Assembly (NCBI RefSeq): GCF_020622345.1
Contig: NZ_JACNMO010000001.1
Location: 372,001 to 436,000, forward strand
Length of the DNA stretch: 64,000 bases
Source of the DNA: Roseobacter weihaiensis
GTDB taxonomy: Bacteria; Pseudomonadota; Alphaproteobacteria; Rhodobacterales; Rhodobacteraceae
Reading direction: 5' to 3'
The notes beneath the pieces were generated by a model, which worked only from the letters and a program-made list of their open reading frames with translations, was not told where the DNA came from and did no database searches. Both the position numbers and the translations under genes were made by a program. Below, piece by piece: positions 1-46,818 of this stretch (position 1 is its first letter; each line of letters starts with the position of its first letter).

Positions 1-1
1 C

Positions 2-367
2 GTCCCCGTGCTGGCCGGACGGCTAAGTGTACGACCCTACTCTTGGACAGTGAATACTGTAGCTCGTGAGGGCCTAGTCAGTGAGCAACGAGTCGCGCTT
101 TTTGGCGAAAGCATGACCGTAATGACAACTGCGCCGGTCCAAGGCCCTGCACGCGATTGGCTCAACTACTACGAAACCCAGGAGCGCTTGTCGATGACAG
201 CACTGAAACGTCGTACATTCGACTCAATTTTGCAAGCTCTGAGTTTTGACCGGCTGACCCCCACGGAAACATTGCACGATGCAGCTACAGAGATCCACGA
301 AGCCTGGGCGGCGGCGTATCCGCAGGCGAGCACAACTCCTGTAAATACTAATCGGAGCATGGAATGA
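2..367 (+). CDS. C-terminal part of unknown protein (partial at window start)
   Basis: The reading frame is open from the first bases of the window, so this is the 3' end of a longer gene; an internal Met at 8 is probably not the true start. I do not recognise the family: the visible ~120 residues have no membrane segment and no catalytic motif I can name. Its stop codon overlaps the ATG of the kinase at 364 (ATGA), which implies translational coupling and membership of the same biosynthetic operon. A role in the pathway of the next three genes is inferred from that coupling only. Confidence 0.55.
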   Translation, partial: VPVLAGRLSVRPYSWTVNTVAREGLVSEQRVALFGESMTVMTTAPVQGPARDWLNYYETQERLSMTALKRRTFDSILQALSFDRLTPTETLHDAATEIHEAWAAAYPQASTTPVNTNRSME

Positions 368-1407
368 AGGCGGGACCCTACGCGGTATTCGACATCGGAG
401 GTACATTTTTTCGCTCTGCCCTATGGCGAGACGGATTGCTAAGCAACGTTTCAAAGAGACCGAGCCTCAATTTCTTGAACACCCCGCATCTTTCCCCCTG
501 TGAATTGCAAAATGAACTGGTAACCTATCTTTTGAATGAAGCAGCCCGACTAGAAGAGGTGTTCGGCAAACGCATAGGTCATGTCGGCATTTCTCTCGGT
601 GCTCCCATGAACGCTAAGACAGGCGAAATTTTGCAATCTGGCCCGCTTTGGGGTCCAGAAGCCAAGTCTTTTGATCTATTAGGACAGCTTAGACGGTTTG
701 CACCCGCAAGAACATACGTGATTGCAAACGACGTGACGGCAGCGCTCCTTAGATACGTTCGCGACATTGATCCTTCCTCCAATGGTAAAGTGCTTTACAT
801 TACGATCAGCACCGGTGTGGGTTCTCGCCTATTCGACGCTAAGCGAGGAGGTATTCCTACCGACAGCCAACATGGTTTTCAGGGGGAAATCGGTCATTTA
901 CCCACCCAAACCATCTTGCATGGCTCGCAGCTCAGCTTTCGATGTGATTGTGGCGGCAAGGACCACCTTAACGCCTTCACATCTGGCCGGGGAATTCTTA
1001 ACTTACTTCGAGAACAACCAAAATTCGCCAGCGGCAGCGAAACGGATGACGACCTATTACGCCGGTTCACCGAAGGTGTACACAACGAAGATCTCGACGC
1101 GATCGCGGTTCTAGATGCTTCTACATCACCGTTGGCACAGATTTTAGCCATCCTATTAACTCATGATCCGATTATAGAAACAATTGTGTTGACAGGCGGC
1201 GTTGTACACAAGCTTGAACCGTCTTATTGTGAGTCACTCAACCGACAATTTCTAAATCACGGCTTGTTTCAAGTTACCGACAGAGATCCTGATTACCTTA
1301 TGCGGAGACTAAGAATCGATACACCGGACGACTCCGCTGGTCTAGTCGGGGCTGGACATTTGGTTGAAACGCTCCATAGCAGACGCTCAGTTTATGTCTA
1401 TGACTGA
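364..1407 (+). CDS. ROK-family sugar/cyclitol kinase
   Basis: A 347-residue ROK-fold kinase. The N-terminus has the phosphate-binding DIGGT motif (residues 10-14), a catalytic-type Asp in ANDV (about 123) and the E-x-GH segment near 175-178. The ROK zinc cluster is visible as CDCGG (194-198), but the usual following GC-L-E is replaced by DHLN, so one Cys ligand is missing. ROK kinases phosphorylate glucose and other hexoses; the acarbose and validamycin C7-cyclitol kinases are reported, as I recall, to be of this type. With a sugar-phosphate cyclase 6 kb away, a cyclitol kinase is a reasonable inference; a plain hexokinase is the alternative. The start ATG overlaps the upstream stop and the stop overlaps the next gene. 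Confidence 0.85.
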   Translation: MKAGPYAVFDIGGTFFRSALWRDGLLSNVSKRPSLNFLNTPHLSPCELQNELVTYLLNEAARLEEVFGKRIGHVGISLGAPMNAKTGEILQSGPLWGPEAKSFDLLGQLRRFAPARTYVIANDVTAALLRYVRDIDPSSNGKVLYITISTGVGSRLFDAKRGGIPTDSQHGFQGEIGHLPTQTILHGSQLSFRCDCGGKDHLNAFTSGRGILNLLREQPKFASGSETDDDLLRRFTEGVHNEDLDAIAVLDASTSPLAQILAILLTHDPIIETIVLTGGVVHKLEPSYCESLNRQFLNHGLFQVTDRDPDYLMRRLRIDTPDDSAGLVGAGHLVETLHSRRSVYVYD

Positions 1408-2467
1408 GAGTGAAACGTCCACCCTGACCTATGGCCGTGGGCACTCGGCGCTACTGCGCCCTGAATTGGGGCGCGGGGCACCTGTTCTAACTCAAATCAA
1501 ACATCCTCCACCTGCGCCCGGGGAACTAATTTGTCGTACGCTTGTTGCAGGTGTATGCGGTACGGATTTACAGATATTCTCCGGCACGCGCGGTGAAACG
1601 GCTCAGGTCTTAGGTCACGAAGGCTTGGGCGTGGTGGAAACAGTTGGCCTTCCTGCCGACAAACCGTTGATCGGAAAGCGCATCGCTGTCAACCCGACCG
1701 ATGCAAAAACTGGTGCTGAATTCGGCCACTCCATCAATGGAATGATGCAAGAGCTTTTCGTTGTACCACAGAGATTGCGCCATTTGGTACTAGATGTCCC
1801 AGCTGAACTAGACGCAGAATTGGCGATCCTTGCGGAACCCTTAGCCTCCGTTCTGGCGTTTGCGACCATTGTTCGGTCTGTCAGTCGGCCGCGCCGTATA
1901 GCACTCTTTGGCAGGGGCACTATTGCACATTTGATACGCTTAGTTGCTCAGGATTTATTCCCTAGCGTGAAAGATGTAGTGGTAATCTCACGTGGCGATT
2001 CGCAATCCTATGAACCCCAAGGTTTTGATCTGTCGGTCATGTGTTCGTCCATCGACGCTGCGGATTGGGCGGCAAATCTAAGCGTCGAGGCCCTATCCGA
2101 CGGCGGGGTACTTTATCTGTTCGGTGGACTCCCCCCCGGGCTTTTGCTGCCTAGCCTAGCATATTCAGATATCGGTAGCCTCCGCGCTCGCAACACTGGC
2201 GGCGAGCTAGGCAATAAGCCGACTGAAACTCTCCAGCATGTCAAGGACGGTCGTGTCATTGTCCTTGCTGGGCATAGGGGCGCATCCAACACTTTGTTGT
2301 TGGAAGCCATGCAAAGGATTACCCGATCGGCCGAGCATTTCCGTCCGCTCGTCAACCAAGTGGTCCATCCTCGAGAGGCCGAGCGTTTACTCAAAAATGC
2401 CTTTGAGGGTTTGTCAACGCGTCAATGGACCAAACTCGGCATCGACTTTCGACGTAGCAAGAAATGA
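1394..2467 (+). CDS. zinc-dependent alcohol/polyol dehydrogenase (MDR family)
   Basis: A medium-chain dehydrogenase with the catalytic-zinc motif GVCGTD near the N-terminus and GHEGLG about 25 residues later. The lobe that normally carries four structural-zinc cysteines lacks them. A degenerate nucleotide-binding segment (GRGTIAH) follows the conserved LAEPLAS helix. Two in-frame ATGs (1394 and 1400) sit at the stop of the kinase gene; either gives an overlap with it, and a start at 1364 would overlap more deeply. The stop overlaps the next ATG (ATGA at 2464). It probably oxidises a hydroxyl on a sugar or cyclitol, as the AcbL-type dehydrogenase does in acarbose clusters; the substrate is inferred from context. 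Confidence 0.85.
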   Translation: MSMTESETSTLTYGRGHSALLRPELGRGAPVLTQIKHPPPAPGELICRTLVAGVCGTDLQIFSGTRGETAQVLGHEGLGVVETVGLPADKPLIGKRIAVNPTDAKTGAEFGHSINGMMQELFVVPQRLRHLVLDVPAELDAELAILAEPLASVLAFATIVRSVSRPRRIALFGRGTIAHLIRLVAQDLFPSVKDVVVISRGDSQSYEPQGFDLSVMCSSIDAADWAANLSVEALSDGGVLYLFGGLPPGLLLPSLAYSDIGSLRARNTGGELGNKPTETLQHVKDGRVIVLAGHRGASNTLLLEAMQRITRSAEHFRPLVNQVVHPREAERLLKNAFEGLSTRQWTKLGIDFRRSKK

Positions 2468-3300
2468 TACGCGGGTTAGACGGGTCTGCCGCTTCAGTCG
2501 GGGTCGCACTTTGGATGTTTTGCGACCCATATGTAGGCCTCCGAACCGCAACATGCTGCTCTCTGGATGAAGTCAATATTGATATGGGCGGACCGGGGCG
2601 CGGAATCGACTTTTTTAGCGATCGTCATCTTGATGCATTCCAGAACTATTTGCGGAAATATCCGATATCGGTTTCGTCGATATCACTCAACCGCCTTAAC
2701 GATATCGGCTTAGTGTCATTCGACGTGCACAATGTCGCTCAGCAAGTGTTGGAGTTGGCTGAAAGAGCACTCACGGTAGCCAATCATCTCGGCGCAAGGC
2801 GCATCGTAATCCCTGGATTTCGACGTAGTTACATAAAATCTCAGCTCGACTTCGAACGAACCGCACAAGCACTGCGCAAGATAACAGAATTGCCCGGAAT
2901 GAACGAGATGGAAGTCGCTTATGAGACTGTTATCGACGCAACCTTACAGCATCAGCTGAATCGCTTTGCGCTCGGGAAACTAAACATGCAGTTCGACCTG
3001 GGAAACCCCTGTCTGTATAGGTTGTCTGCAGCAGAGATTTGGAGAGATGTGGCGATGATTGCTTGTAACGCAATTCATGTAAAAGATATACCTTTAGACC
3101 GCAGCAGAGGTTATGTGCCGTTGGGCAACGGGCGTGCAAAGTTACAGAGATCTTTCGAAGAACTAGCCATAGTAAAACCAGTGCCAAAAACATTCATCCT
3201 TGAGGGACATTACTTTAACGATCCTGAACGTCGGCTTCGAGAGGATCTTGTAGGGCTGACTGAGCTAATCAGAAGTGCGCAAGCTATGCATCAGGCTTAG
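2464..3300 (+). CDS. sugar-phosphate isomerase/epimerase (AP-endonuclease-2 TIM barrel)
   Basis: A 278-residue protein with the xylose isomerase-like TIM-barrel pattern: YETVID (a metal-binding Glu), FDLGN (a metal-binding Asp), AIHVKD (a metal-binding His) and a C-terminal LEGH. Family members isomerise or epimerise sugars and inositols (IolE/IolI-like) using a divalent metal. It is the last gene of the coupled plus-strand operon and overlaps the dehydrogenase stop by four bases. Its likely job is an epimerisation or dehydration on the ketone made by the dehydrogenase; this step is inferred. Confidence 0.82.
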   Translation: MIRGLDGSAASVGVALWMFCDPYVGLRTATCCSLDEVNIDMGGPGRGIDFFSDRHLDAFQNYLRKYPISVSSISLNRLNDIGLVSFDVHNVAQQVLELAERALTVANHLGARRIVIPGFRRSYIKSQLDFERTAQALRKITELPGMNEMEVAYETVIDATLQHQLNRFALGKLNMQFDLGNPCLYRLSAAEIWRDVAMIACNAIHVKDIPLDRSRGYVPLGNGRAKLQRSFEELAIVKPVPKTFILEGHYFNDPERRLREDLVGLTELIRSAQAMHQA

Positions 3301-3468
3301 AAGCGGCAGGTACACATACAGCGGCGTCAATACAAACTCGCGTTCATTCGACAATGAAAGGCTGATGTTAATCGTCGCCAACAAGTTTCCACAGAATTCT
3401 GCAAGCGGATTTCTGCGTTCAAAAGTACGGCGTCTTCCGTAATCGCGCAATTGCTGGAGGTAAATCCC

Positions 3469-4530
3469 CTAAGCACGCAAGCTTTTTGATTGCATAGCTA
3501 ACGCTCTATCGTATCCGTCCGGTTTGCCCGCTCTGACGCAGCTAAGAGTGCGCTGATAGTGTCCACCATCGATACTGTTTAGTTCCGGCATCTGGTGGAC
3601 CGGATTCAGGATGAAACGATCTGGCTCTGATGTCCAGATTTTGCAGATGTATTCGTAAGACGTGAGGCCGCTCAAGGTCTTCAGCCGACGAGCAAAGTTG
3701 TACGCATCCAAGAAGTCAGCGAGGTGACTGTGTAACTGTTCGTGACTGTCGTAGTGGTACCGTTTCACCGTGGCATCCTTAATCGTGCGGTTCATGCGCT
3801 CAAATGGCTGTTGGTCCAGCGATGGTTCGGTTTGGTCAGCCGATGCTCGATCCCGTTGGCCTCGCAGATTATGTCGAAGCGCATCTGCCGGCAGTAGGCG
3901 GTGCTTCGGTTTCTCGGCTGATCTGCGAATTGGATGCCATCATATGTCAGGATCATGTGGATGCGGTAGGGAACGGCTTCGAGGAGACGTTCCAGGAACT
4001 CCTAGGCTGTCTTGCGGTCCGCCTTATCTACCAACTGCGCCACCGCGAACTTGCTGGTCCGGTCAATCGCCACAAAGGGAAAGAGCTTGCCCTCTGCCGT
4101 CCTGACCTCGGCAATATCGATGTGAAAGAACCCGACCGGATAGCGCTTGAAGCGCTGCTTCTTGGGCTGGTCGCCGTCCATATTTGGCAGACGTGAGATG
4201 CCATGTCGCTGCAAACATCTATGCAGAGTAGAGCGCGTCAGATCCGGAATGGTCGGCTGCAACGCATAAAGACAGTCGTCGAGCGGGAGCAGAGTATAGC
4301 GACGGAAGGCAACACTGATGGCTTCCTCTTCGGCGCTGAGAACCGTTGAGCACGGCTCCTTTGGCCCAGTCTTCTGATCTTCAACGGGTCTGTCGCTTGC
4401 GCCACTTTGCGACCGTCTTGGGATTTATCCCAAGCTCGCGGCTTAACTCCGCGATCAAAGCTTGCGGTCGCTGTATTGCTGCTCTGACGGCGTGCGTGGT
4501 CGTGGCGCTGCCATGACGAACTTGTCCCAT
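3469..4530 (-). pseudogene. degenerate IS481-family transposase
   Basis: Reading the minus strand from the ATG at 4530 gives an IS481-type transposase: N-terminal helix-turn-helix (SRELGINPKTVAKWRKRQT), DDE region (HIDIAEVRTAEGK, then FVAIDRTSKFAVAQ) and the C-terminal part ending at 3469. The frame is broken three times: a one-base insertion near 4388, a nonsense change near 4005 (TAG where TGG is expected after DKADRKTA), and a one-base deletion near 3800 just before MNRTIKDATVK. It cannot make a full transposase. It lies between the two convergent halves of the biosynthetic locus, so it marks an old insertion there. Confidence 0.85.
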
Positions 4531-4587
4531 AATGCTTACTTCCATTCCATCGAATGGATCGCACCATCAAACCGTGGGATCAAACAC

Positions 4588-5229
4588 CTAGTCAAATGCG
4601 GTCGGTGCCGTCGGATCTCGCGCGATCCTAACTACTTCGAGTAGTTGCGAAACCGTAACGCGATGGGTCGAAAGATCTGGAAGGTCATCCAGGGGAAAAA
4701 ACTGAATGGCACATGTTTCTTGCGTTTCCAACAACTGTTTGCCTCCTATCTCCGTACAAGAAAAGAAAGCTTTATATGCGTGCGGAATCTGAAATGGATA
4801 GTCATGTTTTCGTTTGTCGAACAAAGCCAGCAGTCGGTCGGGTACAACCTCCAATCCTGTTTCCTCGCTCACTTCCTTTGCAACGGCTTCTCCAGGTGCT
4901 TCGCCGATATCACACCAACCGCCCGGCAGGGTCCACCGATTATCTTCCCTTTCCTGGACCAGCAATATGGTTTCACCTCGGCGAACTACCGCTCGAACGT
5001 CTAGTTTCGGAGTCTTATAATGCTCGTCAGCGGACAGCCAATCCAGAATATCTACTTTAGCGCCAGCGCCAAGTGCCGACATCAAGTCTGCAGCTAACTC
5101 ACGGACTCGCATGTAGCGATCCAAATCGAATTGATCCCTTCCATAGGTTAGCCCAATTTGTGCGATGGCCGACAGTTCCTCAATAGCCTCCAAAAGAGAG
5201 GAACTGTAGCAGTCTACTCGCTTTGGCAT
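4588..5229 (-). CDS. Nudix hydrolase with N-terminal YjhB-type domain
   Basis: A 213-residue protein. The first ~65 residues match the Nudix N-terminal domain seen in ADP-ribose/nucleotide-sugar pyrophosphatases. The Nudix box follows as GGWCDIGEAPGEAVAKEV then SEETGLEV, with the REXXEE core changed to KEVSEE. Such enzymes cleave nucleoside diphosphates linked to another group, using Mg2+. The ATG at 5229 has an AGGAAG-type ribosome site upstream. It is the last gene of the minus-strand set (cyclase, MurA-like, Nudix), 53 bp after the MurA-like stop, so it may act on a nucleotide-linked intermediate or remove a damaged one. The C-terminus stops just short of the IS481 relic but looks complete. 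Confidence 0.85.
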   Translation of the reverse strand: MPKRVDCYSSSLLEAIEELSAIAQIGLTYGRDQFDLDRYMRVRELAADLMSALGAGAKVDILDWLSADEHYKTPKLDVRAVVRRGETILLVQEREDNRWTLPGGWCDIGEAPGEAVAKEVSEETGLEVVPDRLLALFDKRKHDYPFQIPHAYKAFFSCTEIGGKQLLETQETCAIQFFPLDDLPDLSTHRVTVSQLLEVVRIARDPTAPTAFD

Positions 5230-5282
5230 TTGATCATTTCTTCCTCTTTTTGACCCACACTAGTTCAACGGTATTGCCCAAT

Positions 5283-6554
5283 TTATGCAGTCGGCGCGCC
5301 TTCGTCTATGATTTCGATCTGGCCACCTAATTGTACCAAGCGTTCGACGAGGTTCTCATATCCTCGCGCGATCGATGAGATTTGCTGTAATCTACTAGGT
5401 CCTCTCGGCAAAAGGCCGCAAAGCAACAGCGAGGCACTCTCACGGATGCCAGAACCACTCCATACGCCAGGTTGTAGAGATCCACCTAGGACCGAAACCT
5501 TGGGTCCGTCAACCACGGCGTTCAGTCCGCTGCGCACAAGTTGCCTTATATGGTCAAACCTATGCGGGTAGACGTTTTCAATAAGCGTTGAGGTGCCCGG
5601 AGCTACAGCCATCAGGGCGGTCATTTGAGGTGCTAAGTCAGAAGGAAACCGGGGAAATATGCCGGTCTCCAAGCGAAGCGGTCGGGTCGGTCGGCCCGAC
5701 ACCGTCACGCCATCAGCATCATGGGAAACTGAAACTCCGCAATCGTCAAACACTGAAACTATGCTTTCCGCTTCATCAGTTTTTAGTGTGGGGAGTACTC
5801 CTCGCCCGCCTGTGGCGGCGATGGCCGCCGCAAAAGTACCCCAAACAACACGGTCGGTTGGTAGTGCCCAGGACGAAGGTTTTGTGGTTATTGGCCCTTC
5901 AACAATCGCAGTACTCTTGTCCCAGCTAATTTTCGCGTTGCAGGCTTTAAGAAAGCGCGCCACTTCAAGGACTTCTGGCTCACGGCTTACACCGTGAATG
6001 ACACTTCGACCTTCGGCAACCGCCGACAACATTAGTGCCGTTGCGCTGGCAGTTACACCTGCAATCTTGTCGTCAAGCCGGAATTCTCCGCACCGTGGAT
6101 TCTCGCCACTGATTTTTATACCTTCTCGGGACTGACTTACAGAGAAACCGAGCCCTGCGAAGGCCCGAATATGCGGTTCCAATGACCGTCCAGCTATCAC
6201 ATCACCGCCAACGCCCGGAAAATTGATGTACCCAGAACGAATAAGATGCACAACTAAGGCATAAATAGAGCCGCGCATCCTCAGCAAAATTGATCTCGGC
6301 AAAGCGGTTGGCATCTGATGACCCAGGGTCAAGCGCACCTCATCACCAAAAACTCTGCTATGCCAACCTGCTTCATTCATCAGCCTAAACTGGTCCCTGA
6401 TATCTCGAATATTGGGCACGTTCCGCAGACGGATATCACCGGGTATGAGACAAGAGGCGGCAACGATCGGCAGAGCGGCATTTTTCGAACCCTCGATGCG
6501 GACCCGACCTTCCAAAGGAGCTGTGCCTCCCGTTATAAGAAGTACCTCGGACAT
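5283..6554 (-). CDS. MurA-like enolpyruvyl transferase with Asp at the catalytic Cys position
   Basis: A ~423-residue EPT-fold enzyme. Conserved MurA features: GSKNAALP (Lys24/Asn25), FPSD (Asp306, equivalent to the general base), the late Arg371 in RESASLLLCGLL, and the C-terminal ARGYENLVERL. The active-site loop reads GGDVIAGRSLEPH, which aligns with GGC-IG-RP-D-H of MurA and places Asp118 where Cys115 sits; Asp at this site is known to give fosfomycin-insensitive MurA. The ATG at 6554 is preferred; the longer frame would start with TTG at 6563. Housekeeping murA is unlikely to lie inside an accessory cluster, so a specialised enolpyruvyl transfer to a nucleotide or cyclitol is inferred, as the MurA-like NikO does in nikkomycin biosynthesis. 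Confidence 0.85.
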   Translation of the reverse strand: MSEVLLITGGTAPLEGRVRIEGSKNAALPIVAASCLIPGDIRLRNVPNIRDIRDQFRLMNEAGWHSRVFGDEVRLTLGHQMPTALPRSILLRMRGSIYALVVHLIRSGYINFPGVGGDVIAGRSLEPHIRAFAGLGFSVSQSREGIKISGENPRCGEFRLDDKIAGVTASATALMLSAVAEGRSVIHGVSREPEVLEVARFLKACNAKISWDKSTAIVEGPITTKPSSWALPTDRVVWGTFAAAIAATGGRGVLPTLKTDEAESIVSVFDDCGVSVSHDADGVTVSGRPTRPLRLETGIFPRFPSDLAPQMTALMAVAPGTSTLIENVYPHRFDHIRQLVRSGLNAVVDGPKVSVLGGSLQPGVWSGSGIRESASLLLCGLLPRGPSRLQQISSIARGYENLVERLVQLGGQIEIIDEGAPTA

Positions 6555-6651
6555 ACCTACCAATCGCCCGAAGCTAACAGCTTAGGATCATGTCCGTAGC
6601 TTGTAGCTCGTCGCCTGTCAAAGTGTGTGTTAGTATGATCTAGTAGTATGT

Positions 6652-7776
6652 TCACCTTTTAAGCTTTTGTGTTTGACGCAGCCAAGCAAGCGTGTCGACG
6701 AGATCAGCATCACTTATTTCATTGGATGTTTTTAGGAATGAGTATTGGCCAATAGCAACAGGCAGAACCATATTCACCATACCTCCACGGTGATTAGCCG
6801 CATCCTTCAGCGCGTTTCTAACGAAGTTAGGATCGAGCAGATCGTGCCAGACAGGTAAGTTAACCGACATCAAGATCCGTAATATCCGGGTCATAGTACT
6901 TTCATCCAACAGGCCGAGCCGCCAAGCTAATCGGCACGAAAAAGCCATGTCGATCGCAACTGCATCTCCGTGACGCACGCTAAAATTTGACGCGGCTTCG
7001 AGCGGATGGGCTATTGTATGACCGAAGTCGACGGCACGCTCGTAACCTTTAGTCTCATAAGGGTTTTGCTCCAACTCGCACATCATAGCCGCAATGGCCT
7101 TCGCAATCGGATCATGAGAAGTACTTCCACCGTTATTGAGTATCTCTCGGAAGCTCGAACCTCCCGTTTCTTCAATTAATTCAAATAGCTCAGGATCAGA
7201 AGTAATCGCGACCTTTATCATCTCGGCCACTCCCTGCTCAATCTCGCCCCGGTCCAAAGTTTTGAGGAATTCCGGGAAAACCGCGACAGCCGCAGGTGGA
7301 TAAAAGCATCCTAGATAGTTCTTTGCACACCCAAAGTTCACGCCTCCCTTAAGCCCGATGCCAGCATCAATTTGGCCGATGAGAGTTGTGGGAATACGAA
7401 CGTGTGCGATACCACGACGAAGCATAGATGCAGTAAATGACGCAATATCCATGCACACCCCACCGCCGACAGCCACTAGCGCACTGCACCTCGTGACCCC
7501 TGCATCTTTTGTTGTTTGGCAAAGGTTCATAACGGCATCCATCGTCTTCGAAGACTCCCCACTGGCTAGAACGTGCCAATCCAGTGGCACGCCTGCCAAA
7601 CCCAGAAGTTTTTTTATCTGCGAGCCGTAGATCGCATCGACAGTTGGCGTTGTTACTGCAAATATCTGTTCGTAGTGGGAAAGGTTTTCCGTCATCCAAG
7701 TCTGTGATTGCGGTGACCCCAGTTCCCTTATTAACTCGACTCGAAATAGGTTTTCACGAACTGATGCCATCTGCAT
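6652..7776 (-). CDS. sugar-phosphate cyclase (3-dehydroquinate synthase superfamily)
   Basis: A 374-residue NAD-dependent cyclase. It shows GGGVCMD (104-110), the PTTLIGQIDAG loop, Lys143/Asn147 in LKGGVN, AEMIK (Glu185, Lys188), and zinc-ligand candidates in FGHTIAH (His253, His257) and RHGDAV (His269). In dehydroquinate synthase an Asn precedes the GHT motif; here it is Asp250, as in sedoheptulose-7-phosphate cyclases (EEVS type), while His257 is kept as in DHQ synthase. The substrate is therefore open: sedoheptulose 7-phosphate, glucose 6-phosphate (2-deoxy-scyllo-inosose synthase type) or DAHP. An AAGGA ribosome site lies 5' of the ATG at 7776. It is the first gene of the minus-strand set and probably makes the carbocycle of the pathway. 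Confidence 0.88.
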   Translation of the reverse strand: MQMASVRENLFRVELIRELGSPQSQTWMTENLSHYEQIFAVTTPTVDAIYGSQIKKLLGLAGVPLDWHVLASGESSKTMDAVMNLCQTTKDAGVTRCSALVAVGGGVCMDIASFTASMLRRGIAHVRIPTTLIGQIDAGIGLKGGVNFGCAKNYLGCFYPPAAVAVFPEFLKTLDRGEIEQGVAEMIKVAITSDPELFELIEETGGSSFREILNNGGSTSHDPIAKAIAAMMCELEQNPYETKGYERAVDFGHTIAHPLEAASNFSVRHGDAVAIDMAFSCRLAWRLGLLDESTMTRILRILMSVNLPVWHDLLDPNFVRNALKDAANHRGGMVNMVLPVAIGQYSFLKTSNEISDADLVDTLAWLRQTQKLKR

Positions 7777-8517
7777 GCTACAATCCTTACGACTCTGGAA
7801 TTGGCCACTTCAAATTCATTTATGTGCTTTCTTATTATCTTGGTCTGGATAGCACTCTATAAGAAATCTACGTTAGAACAATTCAACCAAAACAGATGCT
7901 GAAGCCACTCGATCTTGAAGTCGAAAAATCACTTGAAAAGGCATAGACAGACTGCAATCCTCCCAGATCAGTGTAGACATTTTTTGAGAGAATGCGAGAA
8001 TAATATACTACCTATGGCTGTGTCGGCAAAAAAGCGCATAGGTGGACGTCCGGTAGGGTGTGGCGCTGTCGACCACGCGGGGGACCTCACCATTGGATCA
8101 TAGCTTTCCCGCAGCACTTCATATGGTGTTTTGCAATTGTGGGAGGTCTGTGCGCAACCGCCAAAGCCTCCAATGATTTGGGATGGCGTTGCACCGGTAA
8201 TGACCATTGAACGATCGCGCGGGACGTAGCAATCGCTTTCTGTGCTTGGTGCCGCGACTGGCAGTCTTATAATGGGTCCCATTATCGTTACTGCCGCCCT
8301 GCTCGCTCTGTGGACTCGTAAGTCGTGGAGACGATAACCTAGAAGCATAAGCACTACTTAACAAAGCCCTTGAGTAAGACTGTCCAATGAACTTCGAAAA
8401 ATTAGACGCAGTCTATTCGAATAGTACGCTCTTCAACCTCAAGAATAGGATAGAAACGCTTTGCTGACATCTGCCATTGAGACGACGAAGATGCCCAAGG
8501 TTAACTTGCTTCAATCA
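7777..8517 (+). other. 740-bp stretch without a convincing gene
   Basis: Short overlapping ORFs occur on both strands, but none has recognisable motifs or a good ribosome site. The stretch must hold the promoter of the cyclase operon. It contains one copy of a 19-bp direct repeat (8273-8291), whose left part belongs to a perfect 15-base palindrome, TAATGGGTCCCATTA (8270-8284). Parts may be decayed mobile DNA, but I cannot identify a family. Confidence 0.5.
8273..8291 (+). repeat. 19-bp direct repeat, left copy
   Basis: TGGGTCCCATTATCGTTAC is identical and in the same orientation at 37268-37286. The two copies bracket the whole stress/repair module, with the left copy between the cyclitol locus and the histidine kinase gene. 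Confidence 0.75.
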
Positions 8518-39990: not shown

Positions 39991-40050
39991 ACTGTCTTAC
40001 ATGAGAGACGTACCAAAACCGAAACACTAACTGTCTCACATGTAGGACAG
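39991..40050. promoter_or_regulatory. two operator-like sites between TIR operon and XRE gene
   Basis: ACTGTCTTACATGAGAGAC (39991-40009) and CTGTCTCACATGTAGGACAG (40031-40050) share the CTGTCT-ACATG core. The second is a near-perfect dyad centred on ACATGT (arms CTGTC and GACAG). Their centres are about 40 bp apart in the divergent intergenic region, so the XRE protein probably binds here and controls both directions. Confidence 0.6.
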
Positions 40051-40096
40051 TTAAGACGAATTCACCACCGAGTCAACGCATCTTCTGGGAGAAAGA

Positions 40097-40432
40097 ATGA
40101 GTCTTCAGCTTCAAAAGCTCGGCGCTCGTATCGTTGAGCATCGTGGCCCTAGTGGCGTTAGGGCCGCAGCGGCAGAAATTGGCGTTAGTTCAGCTACATT
40201 GTCACGGATTGAAAATGGGCATGTTCCGGACCTAGGAACCTTTGCAAAGATCTGCGCGTGGCTGGGAGAAGACCCCGCTGTATTCTTGGGCATCGAAGCA
40301 AATCGCTCGGTCAGGCCGCCCCCAACAGTCCATATGCGCAAGAAAAATACAACATCAGTTGATACAGCAACTGCGCTTGGAGCCATGATAGTAGCCGTGC
40401 AGAATGCCATCATCGCTCGGGAAGAACTTTGA
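40097..40432 (+). CDS. XRE-family HTH regulator
   Basis: 111 residues. The HTH reads AAAEIGVSSATLSRIENGHV followed by PDLGTFAKICAWL. The C-terminal part is short and unstructured. GGGAGAAAG precedes the ATG. It is followed 4 bp later by an ImmA/IrrE protease gene; such pairs form a repressor and the protease that relieves it. It diverges from the TIR operon over two operator-like sites. Confidence 0.88.
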   Translation: MSLQLQKLGARIVEHRGPSGVRAAAAEIGVSSATLSRIENGHVPDLGTFAKICAWLGEDPAVFLGIEANRSVRPPPTVHMRKKNTTSVDTATALGAMIVAVQNAIIAREEL

Positions 40433-40436
40433 ATAG

Positions 40437-40997
40437 ATGCGCAGGGGCTTTAAGGCGCATGCCGAGCGATTGTCACTTGAGACGCGAAATCGGCTTGGCA
40501 TCCGCAATGACAGCGCCATCGACCCCATCGAACTTGTTCAGTCTAAAGGGTGTCTTGTTTGGACACCTCAAGAGGTGCCTGAACTAGATGTGTCGCACCT
40601 TACTCAGTTGACCGTTTCTGATCCGGATAGCTGGGATGCCGTTACAATAAAGGAAGGTGGCTGCACGGTCATTGTTGTCAACAACACGCGCCCTGCTGCG
40701 AGGCAAGCCAACACGATCATGCATGAGTGGGCACATCTTGAGCTGAAGCATAAACCAAGCCGTGTTGACGAGTTTGAAAATGGCCTTCTGCTTCTCAGTG
40801 ACTATCCGAAAGAACTCGAAGACGAAGCAGATTGGTTGTCCGGCGCAATGTTAGCACCCCGCGACGGTTTGGTGGCCTTGCGAAAGCGGGGACTTGATGA
40901 TGACCAAATTGCTGAGGCCTTTGGCATAAGCAGTCAGCTCGCAACCTGGAGGCTTCGGATGACGGGTATCGATCGGCAACTCCGACGCCAGTACTAA
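40437..40997 (+). CDS. ImmA/IrrE-family metallo-endopeptidase
   Basis: 186 residues with the zinc motif IMHEWAHLELKH (His96, Glu97, His100) and the downstream LEDEADWLSGAMLAP providing the third ligand, as in ImmA/IrrE. Family members cleave XRE-type repressors after a signal such as DNA damage. The adjacent XRE protein is the likely substrate. Confidence 0.9.
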   Translation: MRRGFKAHAERLSLETRNRLGIRNDSAIDPIELVQSKGCLVWTPQEVPELDVSHLTQLTVSDPDSWDAVTIKEGGCTVIVVNNTRPAARQANTIMHEWAHLELKHKPSRVDEFENGLLLLSDYPKELEDEADWLSGAMLAPRDGLVALRKRGLDDDQIAEAFGISSQLATWRLRMTGIDRQLRRQY

Positions 40998-41157
40998 CGG
41001 TGGCTAGAGGTTGAACTCACGCTATACACGATGTCGACAGGTCCATATTAAGAAGTCTCCAGGCGACAAGGCTACTCTACAAGCGCTTCACAACACCGCC
41101 TAGTACTAAGTTTTGGTGGATGTGTTGCCTGCCAGAGGCAACTCTAGCCAATGCTTC

Positions 41158-41781
41158 TCAAGCCACAGTGAGTTTCTGAAAGATATTGTCGAAGGCAACG
41201 AAGCATACTACGGCGTGCAGAACGCCTGCCGGAACATCAAGCACGAAATGCTGTTTCGTGTATATGGTTGACAACGAAACCAAGGCTGGGAACAGCCAGA
41301 TAACGGCAGAAACTGTGATCGTCACGTCCCAAATCATGTGCATGTGCATTGCGCTAAGGACCGCAACCGAAACATGCATCGACGGGAAACAGTTCCCGCC
41401 ACGGTCAATCCTCTGAACGACCGAAAGTAGTCTTCGCGAAATCGTCTCAAGGTGATATTCACGCCATTCAAACGGCGTCTTTACTGGGAAAATCATAGCT
41501 ATTGTGGCTTGAAGTGCGAGCATGAAGAAAAAGCTGGAAGCTATGTAGGTGTACTCGCGCCAGTTAGACACCATAAAAACGAGCGACAGTATGAACGGAT
41601 AGTAGGCAACGGTATAAATCCAAACCCAAACCGGTTCAAAGCGAATGCGTTGATCGAGGACAATCAACAGAGAATAGTACCGGCGCACCCTTAATCTTTG
41701 TGGGAAAAAGTATATCTGATACCCAACAAAAATTAGGAAACAAGCTATGATAAGGCCTAATAGCCGATCACTTGGACTCAC
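41158..41781 (-). CDS. PAP2-superfamily membrane phosphatase (Aur1/inositolphosphotransferase-like)
   Basis: 207 residues with about six membrane helices. PAP2 motifs: CFPSMHVSVAVL (His136) and STIYTKQHFVLDVPAGV (His178, Asp182). This spacing and the KQHF-LD form match the PAP2_3 branch that includes inositol phosphorylceramide synthase. It hydrolyses or transfers lipid-linked phosphate at the membrane. It diverges from the glycosyltransferase gene 167 bp away and probably belongs to the same lipid pathway. Confidence 0.82.
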   Translation of the reverse strand: MSPSDRLLGLIIACFLIFVGYQIYFFPQRLRVRRYYSLLIVLDQRIRFEPVWVWIYTVAYYPFILSLVFMVSNWREYTYIASSFFFMLALQATIAMIFPVKTPFEWREYHLETISRRLLSVVQRIDRGGNCFPSMHVSVAVLSAMHMHMIWDVTITVSAVIWLFPALVSLSTIYTKQHFVLDVPAGVLHAVVCFVAFDNIFQKLTVA

Positions 41782-41947
41782 TCTGCACCCTCAACTTAAA
41801 TCAACGATATTCTTTACTAGCAAGAGGGGCGTGCCAAGAGCCCTCGGGCCTGTAGTGTTAATCTGGAGTAGGTGGAGTTACTAGTGAGTCTCAGTCTGCC
41901 TTCCAAACGCCTGCCTATTTTACTGACTGATTGAGTGACTGTGCCTT

Positions 41948-43144
41948 ATGGAAACACTTGTGAACCCACTTCTTTTTATTGTTTTCATAGGGTTAGCGCT
42001 GCATCTTTTAGGTATAGCTTTGTTAGTTCGACGAATGAGACCAGCCAGCAAATCGGGTCCGAAGCATGCCGACTCAGTTTCCATAATCAAGCCAATCTGC
42101 GGAGTTGATGCAGGGTTGGAAGAGAACATACGTTCAATCCTCGAAGTCGAGCCGATTGGCGACCATGAAGTCCTTTTTGTTGCCGGTTCACTGAATGAAC
42201 CCGGCATTCAAGTTGCCAGATCGATTTCGGCTGAATTTCCTGACGTCACGACTAGGTTCCTGAGTTCATCAGGTAGTGAAGCTCTCAACCCGAAGTCCGC
42301 CAACATAATTGAGGGCATCGCTGCATCTAACTTTGATTTGATCTGGCAAACCGATGCTTGCATTCGGGTTCAACGAGATTCCCTGCGAGTGATCCATTCA
42401 AACTTTCTGTCTAAGGAAAGCGACCTTCTTTGCGCTCTGCCCATAGGGGTCGGTGAAACGAACATCTTCGCGGCATTCCACAATTCTTACCTGAACACCT
42501 ATCTAATCCCTTCGATAGTGTTCCTGTCAATCGTCGCGCATCATCCCTGCACATTGGGAAAGAGCTTATTCTTCCGTCGAACTACATTTCAAGATTTGGA
42601 GGGGGAGGAAGTAATTGCGGGATTTTTGGCCGAGGACTACTTGCTTGGGCAAGCATTCAGTAGAGGGCACAAGAAAGTCGACATTCTACCACTGAGTTCG
42701 ATCGCATCAATAAACCAAACACTGAGTGCTAGCAGCCTGCTTAGCAAAAATTTGCGCTGGTTGGCCATGCGCGGTTCTATCAGCCTGCCGGCACTCGCAG
42801 GTGACATTGCTTTTAATCCCTTTTGCTTTGCCGTTTTGGCAGCCCTATTTCAGCCAAGCCTTTTTTTCAACGTCGTACCAGTCGTCTATTTGATCAAGTT
42901 GGTTCTAGAACTTCTCGGTGCGCGAGTTCTTTGTCGTCCAGCCTACAGGCTACCCCATTTGTTTCTTCTGCCAATGAGGGAGTTTATCATATTTGGTGTT
43001 GGATTGGTTTCAGTGTTGAGGCGTAAAGCCGTCTGGCGCGGAACCTACTTTGATCTCGGTAAACAGAGTAAAATCTTGAATGTAACAAGAGGACACAGTA
43101 AAAAGGAGCTCGTCTCGCGTGCCACGAATAACCTTAGGAAATAG
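41948..43144 (+). CDS. GT21-like ceramide glucosyltransferase family membrane enzyme
   Basis: 398 residues. An N-terminal membrane helix (5-27) is followed by a GT-A domain with the family's series D1 (Asp54 in KPICGVDAGLEEN), D2 (TDAC, Asp136), D3 (AEDY, 229-230) and the (Q/R)xxRW-like NLRW (268-271). C-terminal helices follow. GT21 enzymes glucosylate ceramide; the bacterial HpnI relative glycosylates hopanoids. The acceptor here is unknown, but adjacency to UbiA and PAP2 genes points to a prenyl or ceramide-like lipid. It overlaps the UbiA gene by 26 bp. Confidence 0.82.
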   Translation: METLVNPLLFIVFIGLALHLLGIALLVRRMRPASKSGPKHADSVSIIKPICGVDAGLEENIRSILEVEPIGDHEVLFVAGSLNEPGIQVARSISAEFPDVTTRFLSSSGSEALNPKSANIIEGIAASNFDLIWQTDACIRVQRDSLRVIHSNFLSKESDLLCALPIGVGETNIFAAFHNSYLNTYLIPSIVFLSIVAHHPCTLGKSLFFRRTTFQDLEGEEVIAGFLAEDYLLGQAFSRGHKKVDILPLSSIASINQTLSASSLLSKNLRWLAMRGSISLPALAGDIAFNPFCFAVLAALFQPSLFFNVVPVVYLIKLVLELLGARVLCRPAYRLPHLFLLPMREFIIFGVGLVSVLRRKAVWRGTYFDLGKQSKILNVTRGHSKKELVSRATNNLRK

Positions 43145-43994
43145 CGCATACGCGGCCATCGAACTCGTGAGACCCCACGAATACATCGGCGTCTGCATCT
43201 TCTGTACGAGCGTTGGCTACGTGCTAGGGTCAAACTCCTCTTTGTCCATTTTACTGCTACTACTGATTTCGAACATTGGTTGCCTCGCCTTTGCGTTCGC
43301 GTTCAATGACCTCCAAGACATTGAAGATGATCGAAAGAGCCTCAGGGGATGCACTCGAAACCCATTGACCGCAGGTCGGCTCAGCCTCAGGAGTGCTATT
43401 CTAATCTGTGTGTTCTGTCTTCTCGCTTCTATGACCGCTTCAGCAGCTCTTGGATGGAAAGCATTCCTGGCAAACCTTATCGGCATTTCTCTGGCGTTTT
43501 TGTACTCTTGGAGATTTGTAAGGCTAAAGGCTATCCCCGTTTTAGATGTTGTGTCTCATGGCTTCTTTATTGGTACTCTTCAGTTTTGGGTGGCACTATT
43601 CGCTGTTGACGGCCAGATAGGTGATCCATGGGCCATTGTTCTTGGCGGGGCATTTTTTATGATATCATGCTTAAGTGACTTAAATAATGAGATTAGGGAT
43701 TATGATGCAGATCGTGAAGCAGGATTACAGAATCTGTTGAGCCTTTTCGACTTAAGAAAATACGAGGCCCTTGTGCACTATCTCTCGGCCTGCTTGGCGT
43801 TAGGAATTTTATGCATGTTGGCCTTCAAAGTTTCACCACTCGCAGCGGTAAGTCTGGTGGCACTAGTGGGCGCGTTCCTTGGCTACTATCTACTTGGGAA
43901 CCATAAAGACCACCGACGAATTGCTTTCGAGCGTTGGAGCCAATACTGCTCACTCGCTATGGGTATAGTTCTAGTCTGGGACAAGGTCGCTTGA
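43119..43994 (+). CDS. UbiA-family prenyltransferase
   Basis: 291 residues with about eight to nine membrane helices. The two Mg-binding motifs are NDLQDIEDD (63-71) and SDLNNEIRDYDADREAG (186-202). UbiA enzymes attach isoprenyl chains to aromatic, lipid or ribose-5-phosphate acceptors (for example in decaprenylphosphoryl-ribose synthesis). Context with a lipid glycosyltransferase and a PAP2 phosphatase favours a prenyl-glycolipid or carrier-lipid reaction; the acceptor is inferred, not shown. Confidence 0.87.
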   Translation: MPRITLGNSAYAAIELVRPHEYIGVCIFCTSVGYVLGSNSSLSILLLLLISNIGCLAFAFAFNDLQDIEDDRKSLRGCTRNPLTAGRLSLRSAILICVFCLLASMTASAALGWKAFLANLIGISLAFLYSWRFVRLKAIPVLDVVSHGFFIGTLQFWVALFAVDGQIGDPWAIVLGGAFFMISCLSDLNNEIRDYDADREAGLQNLLSLFDLRKYEALVHYLSACLALGILCMLAFKVSPLAAVSLVALVGAFLGYYLLGNHKDHRRIAFERWSQYCSLAMGIVLVWDKVA

Positions 43995-44058
43995 ACTTCT
44001 TAGTCAAAATGCTCCGACACTCTTCTAGTGAACTTGCCACGTTTGAGGAAATAACAGT

Positions 44059-44706
44059 ATGGACCAACTGACACCAGCGGAAGAAAAGATCGTAGACATC
44101 CTTCTAGAGGAGTATCGACAGTCCTCAGGTGAAATAAAGTTGAGATTAGGGTTTCAGCAGAATCTGACAAACTACCAAATCGCCGCTATCGGCGTAGTCG
44201 CCGCAGCAAGCAGCCAGTTCTTTGATGACACCTTCTTGCAACTCCAGGCCTCCGCGTTTGTTAGGTATGTTCTTCTACTGACACCTTTCGTTTTTTTGCT
44301 ATTCTCGTCAGCACACAACACCCATGACTTGATGATAATTCATCATGCTCGGTACATAAATCATGTGGTCGCACCTGAGATCCGGCGACTGACGGGAACT
44401 ATCTCCCTGCTGGGCGCAGACCGCTACCTTCACGAGGAAAGACAGAATCTTCTCGGTCGGCACGGGATCATGCCCTTAGTAGGTCAAGAATTCGCCTTCC
44501 ACTATCTGATCCCCGTCATATTTTTTGTTCTGTTTGCGACAACTTTTGCAAGTGTCGACAAAGCTTTCATCTCTTCATGGGCAACGCTCAAGTGGAGTAT
44601 CGTTGGGCAATATGCAATTCTTTGTATTGGTGTCTTGCTATACATATTCACGATAACAATGCGCATTAGAGTCGGCCAAGCGTATTTGAGGTTGACTTCG
44701 AGATAG
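44059..44706 (+). CDS. unknown protein with four membrane helices
   Basis: 215 residues; not recognised. An N-terminal charged helix (about 1-35) precedes hydrophobic segments near 38-52, 70-86, 148-165 and 182-204. It follows the UbiA gene by 64 bp in the same direction and may be an accessory subunit of the lipid pathway. GAGGAAATAACAGT upstream gives a weak ribosome site. Confidence 0.6.
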   Translation: MDQLTPAEEKIVDILLEEYRQSSGEIKLRLGFQQNLTNYQIAAIGVVAAASSQFFDDTFLQLQASAFVRYVLLLTPFVFLLFSSAHNTHDLMIIHHARYINHVVAPEIRRLTGTISLLGADRYLHEERQNLLGRHGIMPLVGQEFAFHYLIPVIFFVLFATTFASVDKAFISSWATLKWSIVGQYAILCIGVLLYIFTITMRIRVGQAYLRLTSR

Positions 44707-45109
44707 GCCCTTAGCCATGGCAATCGGACGATGAAAACCTTGGTGGAGTTTGGTGCCCTACGTTTCTTGGGCGTTTACCAGATTGGGAAAATCTTCTGCG
44801 TTTCCTTTTAGGTTCGAGAGGCCAATGACCACCTGCACCAAGCTTCATATTCCCCTTTGCTTTCAACATCTGCCCCAGCCAGACACAAAGTGTCGGTGCG
44901 AGCCAAACCGCCACTTGTGTGGAAGCTCGGAACATAGCTTACGTTGGCCAGATCTGCAGCATTGGACACGGACCGGGCTTTGCCTCTGATACTGCTTTCT
45001 AGGGCTCAGAGCGATTGGCACAGCCATTTTCGTTGCCGTGGCCTGGGACCGATTTCGCCGATCCAGAATACCATGATGATCTGCCGGGGCATCGCAACAG
45101 GAGTCGCCA
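44707..45109 (+). other. 403-bp stretch before the integrase gene
   Basis: Frames on both strands lack recognisable domains. The last bases carry AGGAG for the integrase. No attachment-site repeat could be picked out by eye. Confidence 0.4.
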
Positions 45110-46036
45110 ATGCCCCACCTCGATTACAGAGCCTTCGTCAATTCATGCCGCGATGAACGCGGCGTCGGACATCACACACTGCGAGCCTATGCTCAGGATC
45201 TGCGCACCTTCGCTAGTTTCAAGAGGAAACACCACCTCACCGATCCGCTTTCGAAAGACGACATCCTCGCCTACCACCGCCATCTGCGCGATGAGCTATG
45301 CGCCAAACCTGCGACCATCGAGCGTCGGCTGGTAACCCTTAAGTCGTACTTTGCTTGGCGCGCAGATCGGAACAGCGCCCTTCCCTCACCTTTCATGGGC
45401 GTTCGCATCTCGATCCGCATTCCACGGCGCCTTCCACGCCCGATCGACCGGGACACACTCAAAGCAATTTTGCGGACAGAAAACGAAATGAATTTTGCGC
45501 TGCAAAGCCGCCCGAACTCCTGCGTGATGCAAGAGGTCACAATCCTGATGATCAAGCTTCTGATCGTTACTGGGCTTCGGATCGGCGAACTCACGAACCT
45601 GAAGATCCGCGATGTCTCCACCGACGCCTCCCAAATGATCGTACGCGGCAAAGGCAACAAGGAGCGGATGGTCTTTGTTCCCGACGAGGAGCTGCAAAGC
45701 GCGTTTCGACAATACTGCATTGTTCGCACTAAGCATGGCTCTTTAGATTCGCCGTTATTCCTGAACGCTGTTGGCCGTCGGCTCCGATCGCAAACCTTCC
45801 GGAAACGGTTGCGGGTTCTGTCCCATCGATTGGGGATCGCACCCCACCTGACACCGCACCGGTTCCGCCATTCAGCTGCAACACTGCTAATCGAGGAAGG
45901 CACCGACATCCGAATGGTGCAGGCGCTGCTCGGGCATGCCAACCTCAGGACCACTGAAATCTATGTGAGGGTCTCAAACCATGCTCTGAAACGGGCTTTG
46001 GCGCGCGCCGACATTCTCAATGCTCTCAAACATTAA
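45110..46036 (+). CDS. tyrosine recombinase/integrase (XerC/XerD-like)
   Basis: 308 residues. An N-terminal SAM-like core-binding domain (1-100) precedes the catalytic domain with Arg157 (TGLRIGEL), Lys182 (RGKGNKE), His250-x-x-Arg253 (PHRFRHSAAT), His276 (LLGHANL) and Tyr285 (TTEIYVRVS), so all catalytic residues are present. AGGAG lies 7 bp before the ATG. Such enzymes integrate or excise mobile elements or resolve multimers. It stands at the left edge of the island carrying XRE/ImmA/PIN, the BpsA-like gene and the helicase. Confidence 0.9.
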   Translation: MPHLDYRAFVNSCRDERGVGHHTLRAYAQDLRTFASFKRKHHLTDPLSKDDILAYHRHLRDELCAKPATIERRLVTLKSYFAWRADRNSALPSPFMGVRISIRIPRRLPRPIDRDTLKAILRTENEMNFALQSRPNSCVMQEVTILMIKLLIVTGLRIGELTNLKIRDVSTDASQMIVRGKGNKERMVFVPDEELQSAFRQYCIVRTKHGSLDSPLFLNAVGRRLRSQTFRKRLRVLSHRLGIAPHLTPHRFRHSAATLLIEEGTDIRMVQALLGHANLRTTEIYVRVSNHALKRALARADILNALKH

Positions 46037-46094
46037 GCGAGGAAAACAGTCATTCGCTGCGGATGCCAATTCCAGGCAAACTGAAGAGAACTAT

Positions 46095-46772
46095 TTAACC
46101 GAGTTGGAGGGTAAGCTGACCTGTAACATCTTCCGCACCTTCGCCATGCCAACCGGCACGATAGGCGTCCTTTAGGCTTTTTTCTTTAGGATCGGAAATG
46201 ACGATCGGATCACGAAGTACCGCCACATATGGTGCCGCCAGTTCACAACGTATTGCTACGTCGTAGTGACGTTCTTGGCCGGTTAAACTTCCACCGGACT
46301 TTACCACAGCTGTAACTTGCGAAAATCCAATACCAGCACCGGACTTGGCATTAACCAAACTTCCAAAATCCACTGTATCGCATACGGAACTGATTGTCAG
46401 AGGGTGATCTGATCTACAGACCAATGCAAAGTGCTTGGATTTGCCTTGGACGTATCTGCTGGTTACCAGAGATGCGGATGGTAACTCGTATCGCACACCT
46501 CCTGGAGTTGTCGCTTGGCGCCACACAGCAATTTGTCCAGGGTTTTCGTCTACCAGTCGCGGCTTCGACTTAATCGGGCTAAAGGCGACTAGTGGCTTAT
46601 GTCCAGCGCTTAAAAGTGCAGGCAGTGAAGGCGCGATATTGTTACCTATGCCCCACAGAAACACGCCGTTGTTCTCGCGGCGCTCACGTTCCTTCCTTTC
46701 GATGATGTCTTCAATGGATTGCCCTGCCTCAGTTCCAAATCGCGTCCAAACGAATACTTCTGGCAGTGACAT
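46095..46772 (-). CDS. unknown protein, paralogue A of an island-specific family
   Basis: About 225 residues from the ATG at 46772 (GGGAGAAG upstream). A longer frame to a GTG at 46814 would reach within 5 bp of the divergent XRE start and is less likely. The sequence shares QSIEDIIERKERE, FLWGIGNNIAPS and a C-terminal APYVAVLRDP pattern with the protein at 48799-49383, so the two are diverged paralogues. No known domain recognised. It is divergent from the XRE regulator. Confidence 0.65.
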   Translation of the reverse strand: MSLPEVFVWTRFGTEAGQSIEDIIERKERERRENNGVFLWGIGNNIAPSLPALLSAGHKPLVAFSPIKSKPRLVDENPGQIAVWRQATTPGGVRYELPSASLVTSRYVQGKSKHFALVCRSDHPLTISSVCDTVDFGSLVNAKSGAGIGFSQVTAVVKSGGSLTGQERHYDVAIRCELAAPYVAVLRDPIVISDPKEKSLKDAYRAGWHGEGAEDVTGQLTLQLG

Positions 46773-46818
46773 CAACTTCTCCCTTGGCTCAACCAAATAT
46801 TCATGCATATTCACCTTT

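Follow-up and report, generated by a model that had tools for sequence, protein, structure and literature searches.

Introduction

Among the closest described systems for the genes reported here are three from natural-product biosynthesis. The acarbose pathway, with the cyclase AcbC, the ROK-type 7-kinase AcbM, the epimerase AcbO and AcbL, serves as a model for the first steps of C7-cyclitol formation (PMC9200736). Kirkamide, described as an analogue of N-acetylglucosamine (GlcNAc), is named among the C7 cyclitols of the symbiont Ca. Paraburkholderia kirkii (PMC8599487), and NikO of nikkomycin biosynthesis, a MurA-related enolpyruvyl transferase whose acceptor is not UDP-GlcNAc, provides a natural-product precedent for such enzymes (PMC6801904). 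In this study we analyzed a gene island of about 25 kb in the genome of Roseobacter weihaiensis (5,351,665 bases in 91 contigs), lying at the left end of a 64,000-base stretch (C13:372001-436000, hereafter the window) and in the DNA directly 5' of it. The island very probably encodes a C7-cyclitol pathway, and it carries, together with the cyclitol genes, second copies of MurA and MurB and three ATP-grasp ligase genes, a combination which may lead to an aminocyclitol with muramic-acid-like features.

Extent and composition of the island

An earlier note on the window had described six gene families within its first 7.8 kb (sugar-phosphate cyclase, ROK kinase, zinc dehydrogenase, TIM-barrel isomerase, MurA-like enzyme and Nudix hydrolase), arranged as two convergent halves with overlapping plus-strand genes, and had expected the cluster to continue 5' of base 1. 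All six are present where it placed them. Since the plus-strand operon is cut by the window edge, we also read the stretch before base 1 (L003, C13:352001-372000; an L003 coordinate minus 20000 gives the window coordinate), and about 17 kb of further cluster genes were found there. The six genes are thus the right-hand third of the island and not the whole cluster, and the frame open at base 1 belongs to a gene for a 416-aa GH4-like NAD-dependent enzyme (window -883 to 367, + strand; C13:371117-372367), whose 3' end takes up window positions 1..367.

The G+C content at third codon positions (GC3) is 0.41-0.52 in 18 of 18 island genes, compared with 0.72-0.78 in five of the genome's own housekeeping genes (murA, murB, ddl, aroA and aroB) and 0.62-0.68 in four genes to the right of the island. 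A low GC3 in every one of the 18 genes fits a single acquired block more than chance, and in this foreign-looking composition the genes appear as one horizontally acquired island would. None of the 18 frames contains an internal stop, and the translational overlaps are kept.

On the plus strand, the genes for the ROK-family kinase (364..1407), the Zn-type medium-chain dehydrogenase (1400..2467) and a xylose-isomerase-like TIM-barrel protein (2464..3300) overlap one another by a few bases; for the dehydrogenase, an ATG at 1400 is a likelier start than the TTG at 1364 given in the list of open reading frames. The cyclase, MurA-like and Nudix genes form one same-strand run on the minus strand, and a broken IS481-type insertion sequence (IS) element lies where the convergent halves meet.

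The sugar-phosphate cyclase

The cyclase gene (6652..7776, - strand) encodes a relative of 2-epi-5-epi-valiolone (EEV) synthases. Its best match in the PDB was ValA (4p53, 215.2 bits), followed by DDGS (5tpr, 150 bits) and then by 3-dehydroquinate synthases (DHQSs), with DOIS (2d2x) at 105.8 bits, and on the NCBIfam AroB model TIGR01357 it scored 232.8 bits, under the cut-off of 305. The motif columns read DFGH, IDM and HR as in ValA (NHR in the DKK column), and the NLGH and DKK of the DHQS rows are absent. In place of the Pro of ValA's GHxFSP motif there is His, as there also is in five Mesorhizobium rows (IAHP) and a Bradyrhizobium row (LSHP).

A phylogenetic tree of 51 rows, from which DOIS and aminoDHQS were left out, grouped the protein at 100/100 with five Mesorhizobium cyclases and one from Bradyrhizobium. 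It lies in a 19-row clade (92/90) that also holds the Ca. P. kirkii cyclase, ValA falls in the clade beside this one, and four EboD and five DHQS rows fall outside, split off at 100/98; the tree is midpoint-rooted, and the program warned that the long EboD and DHQS branches may attract each other. The DDGS row, close to ValA, has a long branch whose position is uncertain, so that products are not readable from the tree. Given the TIGR01357 score, the best match to ValA, the motif columns, the tree and the presence of the host's own aroB elsewhere (C24), an ordinary 3-dehydroquinate synthase, which the earlier note had named as a refutation of its reading, was ruled out. EEV is no more than a likely product, since the protein falls beside the group of ValA-type enzymes and departs from them at one motif position.

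Close relatives of this cyclase were scarce. The single-protein scan of genome contigs confirmed no close orthologs. When 146 genomes were searched (the own genome, 18 of the same genus and the rest from the family and class), 50 gave a match at E<=1e-35; among the matches listed from the 145 other genomes, none was more than 37% identical, and the 19 of them compared in the motif columns were DHQS-like (16) or EboD-like (3). Among 398 genomes of the phylum, only the own genome matched at E<=1e-50. EboD-like cyclases were seen in relatives of the host, namely at one locus of the same genus (L029), at two of the same family (L014 and L021) and in Ketogulonicigenium (L034), where an Ebo-type cluster is annotated.

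The cyclitol core and its recurrence

A cyclase, a ROK kinase, a dehydrogenase and an aminotransferase stand together in the island, which is the gene set of a C7N-aminocyclitol cluster. The ROK protein is a candidate cyclitol kinase (Pfam ROK, 68 bits) whose sole solved relative is a glucokinase (34.5 bits); the Zn-type dehydrogenase matched Pfam ADH_N at 44 bits, and the TIM-barrel protein, a candidate epimerase or isomerase, matched AP_endonuc_2 at 45 bits. Upstream of them lie, on the plus strand, a Gfo/Idh dehydrogenase gene (L003 17013-17978) and a DegT aminotransferase gene (L003 17975-19117). For DegT, the nearest matches are a PDB entry with the name glutamine-scyllo-inositol transaminase (7b0d, 281 bits) and QdtB, a 3-keto-sugar aminotransferase. 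No description of a role for GH4-like enzymes in such modules was found.

Neighbouring genes were compared at 85 cyclase loci. Plasmid records supplied 5 of them (one EboD-like) and the genome scan 80, the latter being the best 80 of at least 521 from an alignment-based query and so an incomplete sample, in which several loci end early at contig ends. At E<=1e-8, homologues were counted for ROK at 48 loci, Zn-dehydrogenase at 38, the TIM barrel at 26, GH4 at 13, DegT at 7, Gfo at 5 and Nudix at 4, with no control set of unrelated loci and with ROK, dehydrogenase and Gfo being common families. ROK, Zn-dehydrogenase and TIM barrel occur together at 26 of the 85 (25 if each frame goes to its best query only). 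Since these neighbours recur at other cyclase loci, the cyclitol half is a recurring kind of module. The earlier note had proposed a search for co-occurrence of all six families, and this was not shown, since MurA was found at none of the loci and Nudix at four. No homologue of the PTP-like, PaaK-like, methyltransferase or major facilitator superfamily (MFS) proteins of the island was found at any of the 85 loci either.

At five Mesorhizobium loci (L035-L039) the cyclase, GH4, ROK, Zn-dehydrogenase and TIM-barrel genes stand in a single run. Their cyclases are the nearest to that of the island (50-51% identity) and share the IAHP motif; unlike in the island, homologues of DegT, Gfo, MurA, MurB and the ATP-grasps are absent at E<=1e-8 from the stretches compared. 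DegT, Gfo and GH4 accompany the cyclase at three loci (L041, L046 and L047, the last two with identical cyclases). The locus of the kirkamide and streptol symbiont Ca. P. kirkii (L050) has a cyclase of the same 19-row clade, but this is 37% identical, and only the cyclase and ROK kinase of the 18 island proteins have homologues there. The acarbose and validamycin clusters resemble the island in that its cyclase is nearest to ValA in the PDB, that the ROK kinase is of the kind described for AcbM and ValC (PMC9200736), and that a dehydrogenase and an isomerase-type protein adjoin. In contrast to those clusters, no pseudoglycosyltransferase or nucleotidyltransferase was recognised in the island, and MurA, MurB, ATP-grasp, GH4-like and Gfo/Idh genes are present; the Acb proteins were likened by description.

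The MurA-like enzyme

One gene from the cyclase lies the enolpyruvyl transferase gene that the earlier note had reported (5283..6563, - strand). Housekeeping forms of MurA, AroA and MurB are encoded separately by the host, so the MurA and MurB of the cluster are second copies. The cluster MurA scored 281.2 bits on NCBIfam TIGR01072, under the cut-off of 392.7. It was compared with nine housekeeping MurAs, made up of seven of its best-scoring class hits, the host's own enzyme and an Acinetobacter one; its identity to them is 30-34%, while that within the set is 47-90%. Of 123 positions invariant in those nine, 57 are changed in the cluster protein, while leave-one-out controls gave 0-19. In E. 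coli numbering, K22, N23, R91, C115, R120, D305, R371 and R397 are presumably catalytic, and seven of these eight are kept, Asp standing for C115. V163 is retained as well. The positions P121, V122, D123, S162 and G164, which we take to be the uridine diphosphate (UDP) site, read S, L, E, G and T, with none of the five kept (P121S, V122L, D123E, S162G and G164T beside C115D), and a further substitution is D369G.

The search of 385 class genomes gave as best other match a protein of 32% identity at 197 bits, against 187 for the host's own housekeeping MurA; the highest identity was 36%, with up to four candidates scored per genome. Two plasmid genes were examined as possible relatives and set aside. 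The MurA-like gene on a Streptomyces sp. NBC_00280 plasmid has no cyclitol genes annotated nearby, and that on an Embleya plasmid lies in surroundings without annotation. The Streptomyces gene (L126 11956-13287, annotated hypothetical) is 32.5% identical to MurA and may itself encode a diverged enolpyruvyl transferase. NikO was likened by description: it acts on UMP and has Cys130, in contrast to the cluster MurA with its Asp at the Cys115 position, its MurB partner and its cyclitol module.

The GNAT-MurB fusion and the ligases

The second wall-type gene encodes a GNAT-MurB fusion of 462 aa (L003 14670-16058, + strand). It scored 156.2 bits on NCBIfam TIGR00179 (residues 191-459), over the cut-off of 144.5, and 230.9 bits on the longer MurB model NF010480, under its cut-off of 259. 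The MurB domain has a YR motif at 337-338, Cys 386 for the usual Ser, as likewise in 2gqt, and a terminal Glu 456; presumably these are the Arg, the Ser/Cys proton donor and the Glu of MurB catalysis. It is changed at 9 of 39 invariant positions, against 0-4 in a leave-one-out comparison over 15 MurBs, and 190 of the 398 phylum genomes gave a match at E<=1e-28. Both cluster proteins thus share the fold families and several presumed catalytic residues of the peptidoglycan enzymes and differ from them, MurA by its score under the cut-off and its changed invariant positions, MurB by its GNAT fusion and its Cys for Ser. Judged by sequence, the two resemble a matched and diverged pair flanking the C7N-cyclitol module.

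Three ATP-grasp genes and a transporter gene lie upstream on the plus strand, in the order ATP-grasp 1 (L003 9689-10831), MFS transporter (L003 10824-12035), ATP-grasp 2 with an L-amino-acid-ligase C-terminal domain (L003 12051-13259) and ATP-grasp 3 (L003 13256-14440). ATP-grasp 1 scored 64 of 500 bits on an archaeal Ddl-like model. The model matches suggest peptide or amide ligases and do not specify the amino acid. The minus strand carries a gene for an APH-family kinase (L003 6942-8072), closest to AmgK, the anomeric kinase of N-acetylmuramic acid (MurNAc) and GlcNAc. Weak relatives of this kinase were seen in Parabacteroides and Bacteroides plasmid genes annotated as RNase adapter RapZ, possibly a kinase-RapZ fusion.

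Proposed pathway and alternatives

In the route that we infer, with its substrates, order of reactions and placing of the amino group and lactyl ether, the cyclase would close sedoheptulose 7-phosphate to an EEV-type C7-cyclitol, which the ROK kinase would phosphorylate. The TIM barrel, Zn-dehydrogenase and GH4-like enzyme would set the stereochemistry and oxidation state of the ring, the Gfo/Idh dehydrogenase and DegT aminotransferase would install an amino group, and the GNAT domain may acylate it. The MurA-like enzyme would then transfer enolpyruvate from phosphoenolpyruvate to a ring hydroxyl, the MurB domain would reduce the enolpyruvyl ether to a lactyl ether, the ATP-grasp ligases would couple amino acids to the new carboxylate, and the MFS protein would export the product.

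The cyclitol core of this proposal is well supported; the acceptor of MurA and the final product we infer. With MurA, MurB and the ATP-grasps added, the simplest product would be an aminocyclitol with a lactyl ether and amino acids. The earlier note's cyclitol reading stands in its core and its non-DHQS cyclase. Genes upstream of the window, outside the view of that note, encode MurB, the ATP-grasps, the aminotransferase and the kinase, and with them the predicted product is no longer a simple cyclitol but an aminocyclitol that has muramic-acid-like features. That the product is such a decorated C7N-aminocyclitol, with MurA and MurB as biosynthetic enzymes, we regard as an evenly balanced proposition. 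Narrower and more tentative, and to us rather doubtful, is a carbocyclic muramyl peptide in the strict sense, namely a C7N-aminocyclitol analogue of MurNAc, with MurA and MurB retargeted from UDP-GlcNAc to a carbasugar and the ATP-grasps in place of Mur ligases. Such a peptide would mimic the precursors of the cell wall or their breakdown products.

Several observations weigh against the muramic-acid-like product. The full gene combination was seen in one genome only, and none of the 85 cyclase loci has a homologue of MurA, GNAT-MurB, any of the three ATP-grasps or the AmgK-like kinase. Among the GNAT-MurB matches listed outside the own genome in the 398 phylum genomes, none covers the GNAT part, all starting at query residue 141 or later. 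ATP-grasp 3 was found at E<=1e-30 in none of the other 384 class genomes (385 searched) and is a weak match to the dapdiamide synthase model (41 of 840 bits, far under the cut-off); the AmgK-like kinase is also far under the cut-off of its best family (88.1 of 550 bits). The conserved position D369 is lost, so MurA-like activity is not assured, and a nucleotidyltransferase was recognised in none of the island proteins scanned. IS fragments separate MurB from the cyclitol genes and one half of the cluster from the other, so that gene linkage could partly reflect past insertions.

Another possibility is that the cluster is an ordinary C7N-cyclitol cluster whose product attacks cell-wall synthesis, MurA and MurB being self-resistance duplicates. 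Second copies of essential targets inside acquired clusters are a known pattern. Asp at the Cys115 position also occurs in natural fosfomycin-resistant MurAs (PMC6801904). A substitute MurA, however, should keep its UDP-site residues, and here P121, S162 and G164 are among the 57 changed invariant positions of a protein 30-34% identical to housekeeping MurAs; a MurB resistance copy fused to a GNAT domain would not be expected either. We therefore consider self-resistance unlikely.

The two enzymes might instead work on a nucleotide sugar and supply a muramic-acid-type second unit, which would afterwards be attached either to the cyclitol or to amino acids. The retained catalytic residues of MurA, R120 included, and a kinase whose closest family acts on MurNAc and GlcNAc, weak as that match is, are in keeping with such a role, but the presumed UDP-site positions are altered, and neither a nucleotidyltransferase nor a glycosyltransferase was recognised in any of the island proteins scanned. 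A nucleotide-sugar substrate thus seems improbable to us.

Still less do we favour an island that alters the cell envelope or recycles wall fragments and secretes no small molecule. The MurA, MurB and AmgK-like genes do belong to wall metabolism, and by eye some cyclase loci (Mesorhizobium L036 and Rokubacteria L046) have genes for glycosyltransferases and sugar epimerases around them; the MFS exporter, the three ATP-grasp ligases and the lack of a recognised glycosyltransferase in the island speak against this. Finally, a decaying island that makes nothing, to which the several broken IS elements, the absence of a close cyclase among the matches listed in 145 other relatives and the loss of D369 in MurA could point, is very doubtful given 18 frames free of internal stops and translational overlaps that are kept.

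If the aminocyclitol with muramic-acid-like decoration is correct, secondary metabolism would have taken over two consecutive peptidoglycan enzymes together and turned them to a carbasugar. What results would be a so far undescribed compound, a mimic of a cell-wall building block that lacks a normal glycosidic centre and could help to probe wall recycling and the sensing of muramyl peptides. The enolpyruvyl transferase, with its Asp at the Cys115 position, may then be indifferent to fosfomycin. The literature search, which covered few subscription papers and so does not prove absence, found no description of a cluster that combines a sugar-phosphate cyclase with MurA and MurB, and a search on MurA-type enzymes in gene clusters found nothing fitting. 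No natural carbocyclic muramyl compound was found in the literature searched, where the phrase "carbocyclic muramyl" occurs once each in two papers titled on NOD ligands.

Insertion sequences and neighbouring genes

The degenerate IS481-type element lies outside the pathway at about 3576..4601 (- strand), with its frames broken into pieces, and next to it is the gene for the Nudix hydrolase, which has a Nudix_N domain by Pfam (4588..5229, - strand). Two other matches to the element in the own genome are each under 70 bases and 77-79% identical. With window 1-8000 as query, the eight best of 523 plasmid records match this element only, at 79-82% identity; the plasmids bearing such copies are from Phaeobacter, Leisingera, Sagittula and Dinoroseobacter, a hint of a roseobacter-like habitat. 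With L003 2600-20000 as query, the same island DNA was not found on plasmids: nine records gave short matches covering at most 4% of the query, and among the eight listed four were annotated transposases and four were without annotation.

Within L003, one IS fragment lies between the GNAT-MurB and Gfo/Idh genes and another between the AmgK-like kinase gene and a PaaK/AMP-ligase-like gene (L003 3909-5252, window -16091 to -14748, - strand), which has low GC3 and a weak DdaG-type match. A low-GC3 S-adenosylmethionine methyltransferase gene (L003 2660-3535, window -17340 to -16465, - strand) forms the left edge of the island. Because the latter fragment parts these two genes from the other island genes, their membership of the pathway is in doubt. 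A PTP/phytase-like protein, matched under the Pfam cut-off, is encoded at L003 8082-8756 (- strand). Directly left of the island, in DNA of higher GC, an ArdC-type anti-restriction gene (L003 832-1764) hints at a mobile-element origin. A second low-GC stretch, at about 40001-50000 of the window, has a GC content of 0.48-0.52 per 2 kb, compared with 0.54-0.60 across most of 10-40 kb, and was possibly acquired too.

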